From a bacterium (lineage in GTDB: Bacteria > CSSED10-310 > JAJRTK01), in NCBI GenBank assembly GCA_024278345.1, contig JAJRTK010000255.1, positions 1-6,112 on the forward strand: DNA of 6,112 bases, read 5' to 3'. Of the stretch, positions 228-6,112 are shown one piece after another (position 1 is the stretch's first letter; every line of letters begins with the position of its first letter). The notes beneath the pieces are model-generated. The model was not told the DNA's origin. It saw only the letters and a list, made by a program, of their open reading frames with translations, and made no database searches. The position numbers were made by a program, and so were the translations under genes.

Positions 228-800
228 ATGCAAGAAAATTCCCAGCCCGAAATCGCCTACGCAAGCCTGGCCGCTGGAGTTTGGCTCGGAACGCGGTACA
301 AGCTCGTCAAGAAGATCGGCAGTGGCGGCTTCGGAAAAGTGTTTTTGGCGGAGGACACCGCACTCTCCATCCGAGTGGCGCTGAAGATTCTCAACCCTGA
401 TTTGGCGAGTATTGACACTCAGCTCGCCCGGTTCAAGCGCGAAGTGGTGATCGCCAGAAAGATATCCCACCGGAACGTCTGCAAGATCTTCGATTTCGGC
501 CAACTGGGAGAAATGCTCTACCTCTCCATGGAGTATATCCACGGCCAGAGTCTGGCGCACATTCTGGCGAAACACAAACGGCTCGAGCTCAAGACTGGTT
601 TGGAGCTCATCCTTCAGGTCTGCTCCGGCCTCCGGGCCGCGCACGAAGAGGGGGTCATCCACCGTGACATGAAGCCTCCCAACGTCATGATCGACGCCAA
701 GGGGCGGGTCAAGCTCATGGACTTCGGGATCGCACGTTCGACGGACACGGGCTCCGTCACGGTGACCGGCACCATCATGGGAAGTCCGAGCTACATGTAG
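228..800 (+). CDS. Ser/Thr protein kinase, N-terminal fragment (190 aa)
   Basis: This is the part translated before the amber codon. It contains the kinase N-lobe and the first part of the C-lobe: glycine loop GSGGFGKV (31-38), ATP-anchoring lysine in VALK (K53), probable helix-C glutamate E72, catalytic loop HRDMKPPN (145-152; catalytic D147, N152), magnesium-binding DFG (165-167) and the activation segment ending GSPSYM (185-190). All residues for ATP binding and catalysis are present, but the fragment stops just before the PEQ motif and lacks helices F to I, which stabilise the fold and bind substrate. Active kinases of this family have a domain of about 260-280 residues, so the fragment alone is probably unfolded or inactive. 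It has no membrane segment. The P in HRDMKPPN, where E, G or A is usual, is a mild variation. The kinase assignment is secure; activity of the fragment is doubtful. Confidence 0.85.
   Translation: MQENSQPEIAYASLAAGVWLGTRYKLVKKIGSGGFGKVFLAEDTALSIRVALKILNPDLASIDTQLARFKREVVIARKISHRNVCKIFDFGQLGEMLYLSMEYIHGQSLAHILAKHKRLELKTGLELILQVCSGLRAAHEEGVIHRDMKPPNVMIDAKGRVKLMDFGIARSTDTGSVTVTGTIMGSPSYM
798..800 (+). other. In-frame amber (TAG) codon in the kinase activation segment
   Basis: The codon order here is Ser-Tyr-Met-TAG-Pro-Glu-Gln. Bacterial Ser/Thr kinases normally read YMAPEQ or YMSPEQ, so the TAG sits exactly at the Ala/Ser position. A Ser codon TCG becomes TAG by one C-to-A change, whereas an Ala codon needs at least two changes. 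No insertion or deletion accompanies it. The other two stops in the window that end full reading frames (2898-2900 and 5960-5962) are both TGA. That is compatible with rare or recoded TAG use but is far too small a sample to show it. Confidence 0.9.
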
Positions 801-860
801 CCGGAACAGTGTCAGGGACATGGAGGAGACCACCGAAGCGATATTTATTCTCTGGGTGTC

Positions 861-2900
861 ATGATGTACCAGACGTTGACGGGAAAACGCCCCTTCACCG
901 GCTCGTCGCCCATGAGCATCCTGTTCCAGCACGTCACCGACCCGCCAAAGCCCCCTATCGAAATCTTGCCTTCTCTCCCACCGGAGCTCAACGAGCTCAT
1001 CTTGCAGTGCATGGCCAAGCACCCCGACGGACGCCCGCAAACCGTGCCAGAAATCCAGAGCGTCGTTCACGGAGTGCTTGTCAACCGCCTTCACCTCCGG
1101 TCTCCGGAAGAAGCAAACGCAGCAGGGAACCAGGATCTCTTTAGCGACCAGGAGCTGGATACCTATGCGGGATTCACGCCCACGGCTGAGAAGCTGTTGG
1201 ACTCTCAGATTCTCCGTTCTTATGAGTCCCATGCGCACCTTCCCGCAGCGGCTTCCGGTGGCGCGTTGGCGGCGAACGGAATCGATTTCGCCCGGCAGGC
1301 GGACCTCGATGCGGCAACCGCCTTCAGCCCTCCCGGCTCCGAGCCAAGTGCCCATCCCACTCCCGGCATCGAAGCGGCATCCTCCACCGCGGTCGTGGAG
1401 GAGGGCGGTTACTACGAGGCCGGCGAAGCAGGTATTGGTTTCAACCGCTGGCAGGCTGCCATCCTTGCCGTGGCCGCCGGCGGTATCGCGTTGGTGGCCT
1501 ATGTTGGGCTCCTCTGGGGGCTCGGATGGATACCGGTCGGGAACCACCGACCTCCGCCCTCTACCGTGCCTTCGCCTACTCAGGTGACTCAGCCCATCCA
1601 GATCCTCGACGTGGAAGATCCGCTTCAGGCGGAAGTTGACAAGATGCTGCGACAAGCGGAGTTGACGCGAAAAGAGGCCGGAGATCACGGAAACCTGGAT
1701 GCCCTCATGGCGCTGTACAACAGAGTCCTCTTACTGGATCCCAAAAATGAAACCGCCTCGACTCAGGTGGGACTCCTCATTGACGGATTCAAACAACGCG
1801 CCATGAAAGCCTTGAGTGCCGGCGATCTCGAGATGGCTCTCGATATCTCTCAGAAAGCGCGGTCCTATGCTCCCAACGACGCAATGGCAAAGCAAATCTA
1901 CGACACGGCCTTGAGCCAGATGCTCCAAGCCTCATCCGCCACGAGCGAGAGCCTTGCCCAGGCCGCGAAGCTCATCGCCATGAGCCAGCCAATTGCAGCA
2001 CGGCTGATTCTCGAAGGAATTCTCACCACCGAGCCTGAAAACACCGAAGCACTGGAGCTCGATGCCCAAGCCAAAGCCCTCGTCCGCCGCCAGGAGGAAG
2101 AAAAAGAGCACGCTCAAAAAGCCGAAGAAAAAGCCAGAGCAGACGCAGAAGCCAAGCGGGTTCAGGCCGCGAAGGAATGGGAACGGAGAAAACGTCTGGC
2201 CGAAGAACGAAAGCGGAAAGCCGCCGAAGCAGCCAGAAAGAAGACTCCCAAAACCGATGGCACTGCCTCCACGACCCCGACAAAGCCTCCCAGCACCACC
2301 CTTCATCATTCCGCTGAAACCATCGGAGAAGCGGCCTCCCCCGAGTCAGGCAAGCCGGGAATCCAGGAAACTCCCCACACCCGGTCAACGCCCGAAACCG
2401 CAGCTTCCGACAAAACACCAAGTTCAGCCCCTCTCATCCAGACCGAAGGAACACCGGTCCGGGCCACTGCACCAACGCCGACTTCCCTTCCCGCCGCGGC
2501 GATTCTTCCCCCCACCGTGACTCCCACTGGCAAGAAAACACCGACCCCATCCCCAAAACAGAAACCGCCAACCCCCAAACCCGCCACTCCTCACCTGGCG
2601 GCAGTCCGCGAAGGAGATCTTGTCAAGCTGCAACAGGGAGTCACCCCACCCATCCTGCGAACCGGCATTCTCCTCCGCCTTCCGGAAGCCTTGCGCCGCG
2701 GACACGCTGGGAAAATCCTCGTCGTCGATCTGCTGGTCAACGAAAAAGGACGGGTAGACGACGCCAAGATCATCAAGGCACCCTTCGATTCCTACCACGA
2801 TAGGATTCTCAAGCAGATCCGGAAAGCAAAGTTCAAACCCGCTCGCGTGGGAACAATCAAAGTGAAGTGTTGGGTTCCCATCCGCATCCGAATTCATTGA
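861..2900 (+). CDS. Kinase C-lobe, membrane span, coiled coil and TonB C-terminal domain (679 aa, same frame as upstream kinase)
   Basis: This is the downstream half of the split gene; the homologous frame begins at 801 with PEQ, and 861 is only the first ATG. It lacks its own Shine-Dalgarno, so independent translation is doubtful. Numbered from 861, the sequence starts inside the kinase C-lobe (DIYSLGV is encoded at 840-860; the late conserved arginine is R58 in HPDGRPQ). A single hydrophobic span covers about 198-224. A helical, TPR-like stretch follows (about 258-405), then a charged Lys/Glu/Ala/Arg coiled coil (about 405-462) recalling the TolA middle region, and a Pro/Thr/Ser linker (about 463-580). 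The last 95 residues have the TonB_C pattern, with ILVVDLLVNEKGRVDDAKII, KAKFKPA and a closing VPIRIRI strand. TonB's usual membrane-span histidine for ExbBD coupling is absent, so energy transduction is uncertain. The domain may instead bind an outer-membrane or cell-wall ligand that signals to the kinase. Confidence 0.75.
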   Translation: MMYQTLTGKRPFTGSSPMSILFQHVTDPPKPPIEILPSLPPELNELILQCMAKHPDGRPQTVPEIQSVVHGVLVNRLHLRSPEEANAAGNQDLFSDQELDTYAGFTPTAEKLLDSQILRSYESHAHLPAAASGGALAANGIDFARQADLDAATAFSPPGSEPSAHPTPGIEAASSTAVVEEGGYYEAGEAGIGFNRWQAAILAVAAGGIALVAYVGLLWGLGWIPVGNHRPPPSTVPSPTQVTQPIQILDVEDPLQAEVDKMLRQAELTRKEAGDHGNLDALMALYNRVLLLDPKNETASTQVGLLIDGFKQRAMKALSAGDLEMALDISQKARSYAPNDAMAKQIYDTALSQMLQASSATSESLAQAAKLIAMSQPIAARLILEGILTTEPENTEALELDAQAKALVRRQEEEKEHAQKAEEKARADAEAKRVQAAKEWERRKRLAEERKRKAAEAARKKTPKTDGTASTTPTKPPSTTLHHSAETIGEAASPESGKPGIQETPHTRSTPETAASDKTPSSAPLIQTEGTPVRATAPTPTSLPAAAILPPTVTPTGKKTPTPSPKQKPPTPKPATPHLAAVREGDLVKLQQGVTPPILRTGILLRLPEALRRGHAGKILVVDLLVNEKGRVDDAKIIKAPFDSYHDRILKQIRKAKFKPARVGTIKVKCWVPIRIRIH

Positions 2901-3061: not shown

Positions 3062-3232
3062 GAACGGCGGGAACGGATGTGAGCGACGTGAGCGGAACGC
3101 GACTCAAACCCGCTCGTGACGATCCGTGATGAGAGTTCCGGGTTGAAGCGTCCCACGGCCAACATCCGGGAAACAGTAGGGGTGGCTCTGGTGCGCCGAG
3201 CCCAAGACAGATGGATCAAAACAATTCAATAC

Positions 3233-3261
3233 TTGAACATCATGAATTCTCCGTGTAATCT
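3233..3261 (+). promoter_or_regulatory. Candidate sigma70-type promoter for the protease gene
   Basis: TTGAAC (3233-3238) and TAATCT (3256-3261) are 17 bp apart, the preferred spacing, in the first AT-richer stretch before the protease. The matches to the consensus hexamers are only 4 of 6 and 3 of 6, so the call is weak. Transcription from here would give a leader of about 60-65 bases before the start at 3332. Confidence 0.25.
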
Positions 3262-3321
3262 ATCCGGCGAGGACCGAGTCTGCGGTTTTTCACAGTTTCT
3301 TGTCATGAATTTCTTTATGTT

Positions 3322-3327
3322 AGGAGG
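3322..3327 (+). promoter_or_regulatory. Strong Shine-Dalgarno (AGGAGG) that fixes the protease start
   Basis: AGGAGG lies 4 bases before ATG 3332. It is the only good ribosome-binding site near any candidate start of this frame (GTG 3116, ATG 3305, ATG 3317, ATG 3332). The spacing is slightly short, but the match is complete, and the resulting N-terminus is a plausible signal peptide. Confidence 0.75.
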
Positions 3328-3331
3328 TTCC

Positions 3332-5962
3332 ATGGGTTGGCAAAAAAATGGTTGCGGGGTGAATCATTGGTTCGCCCCGAAATTCGGCTACAGGTTCTTG
3401 ATTTGGACTGCGATGACAATCTGCTCATCGCAGTTTGTCTTTGGGGCGGAGTCGCGTCCAGAGGTAGAACAGGCGATTCGGGTCATGGGGCAGGCGACGT
3501 CTGGCAAGGGCAAGATTGTTCGTTCCTCGATGACGGGATTCGTCTCCTTTTTGTCAGTTCCCGGTGGAGCTTCTCTTAGACTGCCAGTATCGGAAACTGC
3601 TCCCGCGGAGGCTCGTGCATTGGCAGTCATCCAAGAGTTTGGTCCCGCGTTTGGCCTCCGAAACACCGATGCGGTGCGGGTGACCCGGAGCTCGCAGCCG
3701 GATGGGGTAGGCATGGAGCACGTGCGGCTCCAGCAGGTCTACCGGGGAATACCCATAACGGGAGCTGAGTTGACGATTCATTTGGCGGGCAATCGGCTCA
3801 TCTCAGTCCTGGCAAAGACGGTACCGGAGCCATCGTTGTCCATCGAGCCGCAGATCACAGCTCAGGAAGCGGAAGATCGGGTTCGGCAGCGGTTGGCCAA
3901 GCATCTCGACCGAAGCGGCGCGACCCTGACGACTCGGTTGGAAATCCTTTCCCGTTCGCTGCTGGATGGCGTTGAGATGCCACCGCACCTGGTCTGGTTC
4001 GTGGAAGCTCGCGGGTTCGATCTATGGCGTTATTTCTGGGTGGATGCCCGAAGAGGCAGGCTCTTGCTCGATTTCAACCAGCTCCCCAATGCCAAGAATC
4101 GCGAGACCTACACGTCTGGAGCAACGAATACGCTTCCGGGCACCTTGCTGCGGAGTGAAGGCACGCCTGCCATCGGCGATGTGGACGTGGACAATGCCCA
4201 CGACGGAGCCGGAGAAATCTACGATTTCTATATGAATAAGTTTGGCCGGGACAGTTATGACAACGCCGGATCGACAATTATATCTAGCGCCCACTACTGC
4301 GATCAATGCCCCAGCCCAATGGCCAATGCCTTTTGGAATGGAACTCAGATGGTGTACGGCGAGGGACTTCCCGCGGCGGATGATGTGGTGGGTCATGAGT
4401 ATACCCATGCCATCATCAACCTGACGTCCAATCTTTTTTACTACATGCAAAGCGGCGCCTTGAACGAATCTTATGCTGACGTCATTGGGGAAACACTGGA
4501 CCTACAGAATGGCCGTGGCAACGACGCTTTCAATGTTCGCTGGGTCATGGGCGAAGATTGGGGAGCGCCTACGGGGGACAATACCGGAATCCGAAACATG
4601 ATGAACCCCAACGCATTCAACGATCCGGCAAAGATGAGCGATTCCACCAATTTTAAATGCTACGACTCAAGGGGCGTAGACGCCGGGGGTGTCCACGGGA
4701 ACAGCGGGATTCCCAACCATGCATACGCGCTCATGGTGGACGGTGGAAGCTATAACGGATTCACCATCACGGGCATTGGCTTGGACAAGGCAGTCCAGAT
4801 TCAGTTTCGGGCGGTGTCAATTTATTTGGTTTCCGCTTCTGGTTTTCTGGATAACTACAATGCGGTCCAGCAGTCCTGTACCGATCTTGTGGGGCAGTTC
4901 GGCATCAGTAGCGGCGACTGCACCGAAGTCAAGAAGGCCCTGGACGCCGTGGAGATGGGAGCCGCTTGGCCCTGTAGCCCCGCACAAGCAGCGGTGCCGG
5001 ATCGCTGCTCGGCGGGTCTAACCCCCAGCAACACATTCTTCGATGACTTCGAAAACTCAACCTCGGGCAACTGGGGAACCAACGACCTCATTGGCGGTGT
5101 TGGCTCCGTTTGGCTCCAGGGGAATCCCGCCACAATGTACTCTTCAGAATTCGCCACAAGCCCTACGCAGCATTTGTTTGGATGGAATGCCAATGTCACG
5201 TCGGATTCCACCGCCGAGATGGCAAACGATGTGACCATCCCGGCGAACGCCTTCTTGCAGTTCAACCACGCCTTCGGCTTCGAGAACGGCACTGGGGTCT
5301 TCTACGATGGCGGGGTCATGGAATACAGCACCAACGGCGGAACAAACTGGAGCGATGTCGGATCGCTGATCTCGGCGGGCGCCAATTATGGAGGTTCGAT
5401 TTCCACCTGCTGCAGCAACCCGTTGGCCGGACGCTCAGCGTTTGTCAACGAGAGCTGGGGTTATACGGCAACACAGCTCAACCTCTCCTCGCTATCGGGA
5501 CAGGCCGTTCGCTTCCGTTTCCGGATGGGCACGGATGGAGCCGTCGATGACTATGGCTGGGCGGTGGACGATTTCGGCATTTACACTTGCGTCGCGACAA
5601 GTCCAACGCCGACGAAGACCCCGACGGCTTCGCCGACGAAGACACCGGCCCCAGGTACGCCCACCCCATCTCCGACAACGGGAGGAAGCAATCCAACGGC
5701 CACAAACACGCCACCTGTTCCCACCAGTACGCCCCTTGCCTGTGATTGCCCCGACGCGGATTTCGACGGAGTCCCCAATGCGTGGGACCTCTGCCCCAAT
5801 ACTTCCGTGGGCAGCTACGTCGATTCGAGCGGTTGTGCCGGCTCGACGCTGGGAAGTGCTCCAAGTCAACAGCGCTGGAACCTGATCCTCTTGCTCGGCC
5901 TGCTAGGTGTGGCGACACTGTTGCGGCGCGGGCATCTCATGCTTGGAAAACGCGGGCGGTGA
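3332..5962 (+). CDS. Secreted M4-family (thermolysin-like) zinc metalloprotease, multidomain (876 aa)
   Basis: This is an exported neutral endopeptidase of family M4. By residue: signal peptide about 1-39 (long n-region, core FLIWTAMTI at 22-30, likely cleavage near VFG/AES); FTP/PepSY-type inhibitory propeptide about 60-250; catalytic domain about 255-545. The zinc site is HEYTH (H355, catalytic E356, H359) with third ligand E379 in GALNESYAD, 20 residues after H359 as in thermolysin. The transition-state histidine is H455 in DAGGVHGNSGI, with its partner D450. All key residues are therefore intact. After the protease comes a beta-rich domain about 565-753 (FFDDFE start, GWAVDDFGIY end) like those on MAM or immune-inhibitor-A type exoproteins. 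Then come a Pro/Thr linker 757-802, a thrombospondin type 3-like repeat 804-836 (DADFDGVPNAWDLCP), and a C-terminal hydrophobic span about 849-864 with a basic tail. The last part suggests surface anchoring or a processed sorting signal. Typical M4 enzymes are 500-600 aa, so this one is enlarged by its C-terminal extensions. It is probably transcribed on its own. Confidence 0.96.
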   Translation: MGWQKNGCGVNHWFAPKFGYRFLIWTAMTICSSQFVFGAESRPEVEQAIRVMGQATSGKGKIVRSSMTGFVSFLSVPGGASLRLPVSETAPAEARALAVIQEFGPAFGLRNTDAVRVTRSSQPDGVGMEHVRLQQVYRGIPITGAELTIHLAGNRLISVLAKTVPEPSLSIEPQITAQEAEDRVRQRLAKHLDRSGATLTTRLEILSRSLLDGVEMPPHLVWFVEARGFDLWRYFWVDARRGRLLLDFNQLPNAKNRETYTSGATNTLPGTLLRSEGTPAIGDVDVDNAHDGAGEIYDFYMNKFGRDSYDNAGSTIISSAHYCDQCPSPMANAFWNGTQMVYGEGLPAADDVVGHEYTHAIINLTSNLFYYMQSGALNESYADVIGETLDLQNGRGNDAFNVRWVMGEDWGAPTGDNTGIRNMMNPNAFNDPAKMSDSTNFKCYDSRGVDAGGVHGNSGIPNHAYALMVDGGSYNGFTITGIGLDKAVQIQFRAVSIYLVSASGFLDNYNAVQQSCTDLVGQFGISSGDCTEVKKALDAVEMGAAWPCSPAQAAVPDRCSAGLTPSNTFFDDFENSTSGNWGTNDLIGGVGSVWLQGNPATMYSSEFATSPTQHLFGWNANVTSDSTAEMANDVTIPANAFLQFNHAFGFENGTGVFYDGGVMEYSTNGGTNWSDVGSLISAGANYGGSISTCCSNPLAGRSAFVNESWGYTATQLNLSSLSGQAVRFRFRMGTDGAVDDYGWAVDDFGIYTCVATSPTPTKTPTASPTKTPAPGTPTPSPTTGGSNPTATNTPPVPTSTPLACDCPDADFDGVPNAWDLCPNTSVGSYVDSSGCAGSTLGSAPSQQRWNLILLLGLLGVATLLRRGHLMLGKRGR
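5607..5643 (+). repeat. 13-bp direct repeat within the Pro/Thr linker
   Basis: CGCCGACGAAGAC occurs exactly at 5607-5619 and again at 5631-5643, a period of 24 bases or eight codons. It encodes the repeated PTKTP units of the protease linker. Because the period is a multiple of three, slippage would change linker length without shifting the frame. Confidence 0.75.
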
Positions 5963-6049
5963 GGAGCATTGGTGTTTGGAAGGGGTATCCACGCAAGGCG
6001 GGACAGAACAGAAAAAAAAGGAAAACGCGTAGCGTACAAAAACGTGGGT
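5963..6049. other. Non-coding region after the protease gene
   Basis: No gene is seen from the protease TGA to the palindromic block at 6050. There is a purine-rich A-run (6012-6019) but no hairpin followed by a T-run on the plus strand, so no intrinsic terminator for the protease is evident. Confidence 0.5.
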
Positions 6050-6096
6050 CCAGGGAGCGCGCTCCCTGGTGGGTGCAGGGCGAAGCCCTGCCAGGG
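6050..6096. repeat. Composite palindromic element, REP/BIME-like
   Basis: A perfect 20-base palindrome with two 10-base halves (6050-6059 CCAGGGAGCG, 6060-6069 its reverse complement) is followed 5 bases later by a 7-bp stem GCAGGGC/GCCCTGC (6075-6081 and 6085-6091) with a GAA loop. CCCTGG (6064-6069) can also pair with CCAGGG (6091-6096) to enclose the second stem, giving alternative folds. On the minus strand the second stem shows the stable GGGCTTCGCCC form. The first is followed, 7 bases on, by five T residues (6045-6041), so a minus-strand terminator for a gene to the right is possible. From memory, similar CCAGGG/GGGCTTCGCCC blocks recur between genes in several high-GC proteobacteria; this was not checked. 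Confidence 0.65.
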
Positions 6097-6112
6097 GACG
6101 GGGGATGGAATC

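Follow-up and report, generated by a model that had tools for sequence, protein, structure and literature searches.

Four protein kinases in one draft bacterial genome carry an in-frame stop within the same seven codons of the kinase domain, among them the Hanks-type Ser/Thr kinase of the stretch analysed here, where a TAG occupies positions 798-800. An assembly error or a recent gene-breaking mutation is more likely to account for this TAG than a new genetic code. The window, 6,112 nucleotides, is the entire contig C179 of a genome of 6.06 Mb in 550 contigs (87.9% complete). Stretches totalling 1.32 Mb of this genome were used for the sequence comparison with relatives, which share its phylum at closest.

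The interrupted kinase gene

The TAG is codon 191 of a forward-strand frame that runs from an ATG at 228 to a TGA at 2898-2900 and gives an 890-residue product if the TAG is read as X (Table 1). In a Pfam search of that translation, PF00069 (Pkinase) matched residues 24-271 (E 1.7e-53), the alignment running through the TAG without a gap, and the Gly-rich loop, the VALK lysine, HRD, DFG and the APE region are all visible. The domain and its catalytic motifs thus assign the gene to the Hanks-type Ser/Thr kinases, although its coding sequence is interrupted. The first-pass annotation of this DNA had described an amber codon at the YM(A/S)PEQ site, contiguous kinase homology on both sides of it and 699 open codons 3' of it, and each of these was confirmed, the last up to the final TGA. 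Its view that an old pseudogene is unlikely also holds, given the single lesion and the open downstream frame; the additional frameshifts or stops expected of a decayed pseudogene were seen neither in this gene nor in the stop-bearing genes described below. Without suppression the product should lack kinase activity, because the frame breaks ahead of the C-terminal half of the fold. The closest paralogues within this genome share 52% identity with it and are intact. In the paralogue on contig C148, the preceding Met is the same and TCG stands in the stop codon's place, so a change from TCG to TAG would take one base. No orthologue of the window kinase was found in public species genomes.

Table 1. 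Features of the window and in-frame stops in other genes of the same genome (stop codons in square brackets).
Contig	Feature	Position	Strand	Description
C179	Hanks-type Ser/Thr protein kinase gene	228..2900	+	891 codons, counting one internal TAG and the terminal TGA; Pfam, translation with TAG as X
C179	Protein kinase domain	297..1040	+	PF00069; match C179:297-1040 of the genome-wide kinase search, one TAG inside
C179	YM[TAG]PEQ motif, TACATGTAGCCGGAACAG	792..809	+	Pattern search; stop at Ser/Ala codon
C179	In-frame TAG in place of the Ser/Ala of YM(S/A)PEQ	798..800	+	Ser, Ala or Pro in aligned kinases (paralogues) of the same genome
C179	Downstream open frame, 679 aa	861..2900	+	ATG start; ORF list; end of the kinase domain, low-complexity linker, C-terminal domain
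C179	Putative membrane segment	near 1447-1530	+	Judged by eye
C179	TonB C-terminal-like domain at the protein end	2685..2885	+	PF03544, E 9.5e-5, slightly under the Pfam cut-off; in frame after the TAG
C179	M4 (thermolysin-like) metallopeptidase gene	3116..5962	+	PF02868, PF01447, PF07504; propeptide motif; ends with TGA; separate from the finding
C306	Kinase			YM[TAA]PEQ; stop at Ser/Ala codon
C57	Kinase			YMSPE[TAG]; stop at Gln, three codons after the C179 site
C414	Pseudokinase			HP[TAA]CLAPEQ; stop three codons before the C179 site
C262	OppD-like ATPase			MVF[TAG]EPMTSLNP; one stop in a conserved motif
C297	Histidine kinase			SGMNE[TAA]VLDKIFDPFFTT; one stop in a conserved motif
C358	Secretin-like gene			TD[TAA]LIFITP; one stop in a conserved motif

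Elsewhere in the window, the metallopeptidase shows, by Pfam and by eye, a weak MAM/reelin-like region, a TP-rich linker, an apparent thrombospondin-type calcium-binding repeat and a hydrophobic C-terminal tail. Both window ends (1-115 and 5991-6112) are dispersed repeats of about 115-120 bases each. In the sampled 1.3 Mb they matched 27 and 43 stretches, respectively, and each is probably present in over 100 copies in the genome. Repeats at both contig ends fit a short-read assembly that was broken at repeats, and the genome appears to derive from short-read metagenome data. The portion of the 16S rRNA of contig C311 that was read had no clear error.

Companion stops and stop-codon usage

With 129 kinase-domain matches in 6 Mb, the genome has a very large Hanks-type kinome. 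The whole-genome kinase search flagged an internal stop in four of these domains (C179, C306, C57 and C414) and in none of the others. The chance that the other three stops would fall within three codons of the first is 1.9e-5 for a 263-position domain. This clustering rules out scattered decay, and independent random mutations would not place four stops in one seven-codon stretch. The first-pass annotation missed the three further kinases. Read as a single fresh TCG-to-TAG mutation, its proposal is incomplete, because those three genes are interrupted within the same seven codons.

Searches of other families, together with a comparison that set 1.32 Mb of this genome against 0.8 Mb from two relatives, yielded three non-kinase genes with one stop each (C262, C297 and C358; Table 1). 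No stop flagged in the 0.8 Mb of the relatives was judged convincing, and a self-comparison of the genome that was not filtered by strand produced many false positives from antisense frames. An HATPase match with TAG (C313), tried as a further companion, proved to be an ordinary gene end. A codon-usage scan for further readthrough genes gave a signal too weak to be useful, with the OppD-like and C57 stops as its two top candidates. All seven stop-bearing genes have a single lesion and are otherwise intact where read. The residues replaced, in the order C179, C306, C57, C414, C262, C297 and C358, are S/A, S/A, Q, variable, Q, E/A and L, the Q of C262 being that of the known OppD motif. No stop was found among 81 response regulator matches and 31 sigma-54 activators, though these are also multicopy.

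TAG and TAA are ordinary terminators in this genome. Among 81 homology-supported gene ends, 47 were TGA, 21 TAG (26%) and 13 TAA, so that the hint of reduced TAG use in the first-pass annotation was wrong, and neither codon shows the depletion that a genome-wide reassignment would leave. None of 48 tRNA matches had a CUA or UUA anticodon, and the best match to the PylS C-terminal profile scored 23 bits against a cut-off of 178; since the genome is only 88% complete, the missing pylS and tRNA-CUA are not final. The stops replace no one consistent amino acid, and the flanks of the seven differ, with no common leaky context. The suppressor tRNA or amber recoding that the annotation had entertained is therefore unsupported, in view of the normal terminators, the tRNA and pylS searches and the differing replaced residues.

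Two other loci came to light in this genome. The tRNA-like gene at C257:2877-2940 (L112 473-545, minus strand; 43 bits) has a bulged acceptor stem and a 6-base anticodon loop, TTTGTC; it was rejected as a candidate suppressor, as the loop contains neither CUA nor UUA. On C353 (L191 near 17353, forward strand), an AhpD-like gene has an in-frame TGA (NDCFY[TGA]LVHHGESLR) at the position usually occupied by the second Cys of the family's CxxC. By its sequence this gene likely encodes a selenoprotein, and the genome may accordingly use selenocysteine.

No kinase that carries such a stop and is otherwise intact turned up in the scans of other genomes. Seven same-phylum genomes had no internal stop among the kinase matches listed. 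A kinase match in another genome (G031), considered as a possible case, proved to be an ordinary gene end. The pattern YM[TRR]PEQ was present in this genome only among 386, with two matches, both in kinases. Eight matches in 195 second-phylum genomes were not kinases, the TAG matches in seven of those genomes lying in frames without kinase homology; overall, pattern scans of 579 other genomes gave no stop-bearing kinase. A slightly narrower pattern had 75 matches in about 85,000 species genomes, of which one was a kinase, a decayed and frameshifted pseudogene with YM[TAG]PEQ in an Acidobacteria MAG (contig L386).

Competing explanations

The options listed in the first-pass annotation (a fresh nonsense mutation, a sequence or assembly error, readthrough) were the right ones to weigh. 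We consider a wrong base in the assembled consensus at 798-800, arising from an assembly or base error, the most likely explanation and give it about an even chance. The stretch G-T-P-x-Y-M-S/A-P-E-Q is the most conserved of the kinase family, which is represented by dozens of copies here and probably by very many more across the community. In a short-read metagenome, words this abundant could allow single-base read errors to reach the depth of a thinly covered genome's true sequence, and the assembler may then thread a wrong word between correct flanks. Such an error would fit the clustering of the stops, the intact flanks, the specificity of the pattern to this draft and the ordinary use of TAG. 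At the three best sites, the exact DNA common to other kinases is 19-23 bases long, versus a median of 16 at control codons, which is compatible with an error in repeated words. At C414, C262, C297 and C358 the shared stretch does not exceed the control length, which counts against an error. The weak point of the consensus-error reading is the scarcity of matching missense errors. Base errors in the motif have about 23.5 missense routes versus 4.5 stop routes, so that, if errors strike regardless of their effect, each stop should be accompanied by several visible missense changes; this scarcity counts against error. Only 2-4 odd residues at invariant positions were found in 80 motif copies, versus 4 stops, and the predicted excess of missense changes is thus missing (p about 0.01-0.03, or as much as about 0.1 when errors are restricted to G/C-to-A/T). 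The stop-free response regulators and sigma-54 activators also count against it, as does the C311 16S rRNA, with no clear error in the portion read. No paper on in-frame stops caused by misassembly of MAGs was among those searched.

We rank second, as possible and clearly less probable than an error, that these are genuine recent nonsense alleles, by which several kinases and other genes would have been lost through single nonsense mutations, with mutations concentrated at the kinase motif, for instance because its roughly 80 near-identical paralogous copies recombine or serve in repair. One base change in a plausible sense codon could account for each stop (TCG or CAG becoming TAG in C179, C57 and C262), the missense excess that errors would predict at the motif is not visible, and the Acidobacteria case is a real kinase pseudogene with this change. 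Selection for loss would, however, scatter the stops, rather than leave all four within seven codons. Pseudogenes often carry frameshifts, yet none was noticed in the kinases of this genome, nor a second lesion in the seven genes where read, and we know of no hot-spot mechanism that gives both C-to-A and C-to-T changes at such a motif. It is improbable, in our estimate, that a dedicated process places or keeps stops in kinase activation segments, whether as targeted inactivation or to permit translation only upon stop bypass. We hold a lineage-specific readthrough or editing, in which the stops are genomic and their weak or regulated bypass would gate production of the active kinase, to be just as doubtful. 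The recurrence of stops at one structural site in four kinases, the intact downstream frames and the scarce missense changes at the motif would suit it; yet the stops are both TAG and TAA, they stand at positions of different residues with no flanking sequence in common, the C57 kinase uses TAG both internally and as its terminal codon, as do many supported genes at their ends, no fitting tRNA was found, and the relatives' listed kinase matches have no such stop. Pyrrolysine or a genome-wide amber reassignment, which a single in-frame TAG in a conserved gene would fit if taken alone, is largely refuted by the PylS score, the lack of a CUA tRNA among the matches, the normal use of TAG as a terminator and the TAA of the companions, and we leave it hardly any weight.

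Should the stops prove to be errors, the case would serve as a warning that recoding can be mimicked where in-frame stops interrupt the conserved motifs of large gene families in draft metagenome bins, and that a genome-wide search for companion stops brings such cases to light. Should they be real, the recurrence of stops in a single structural element of several kinases would represent a novel means of silencing or gating signalling genes.

Compared with known systems, the window shares with amber and ochre reassignment (codes 15 and 6; pyrrolysine) an in-frame TAG or TAA in otherwise conserved genes. The differences are that no suppressor tRNA or pylS was found, that in-frame stops are few, that genes still terminate in TAG and TAA and that the replaced residues vary. 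The Acidobacteria pseudogene has its TAG at the same YMxPEQ codon as the window gene; it also has frameshifts and lacks the catalytic loop, whereas the window gene has a single lesion. Relative to Hanks-type (PknB-like) kinases (PF00069), the window gene has all the catalytic motifs, spread over both sides of the stop, and differs in that its frame is broken at the Ser/Ala of the APE region.
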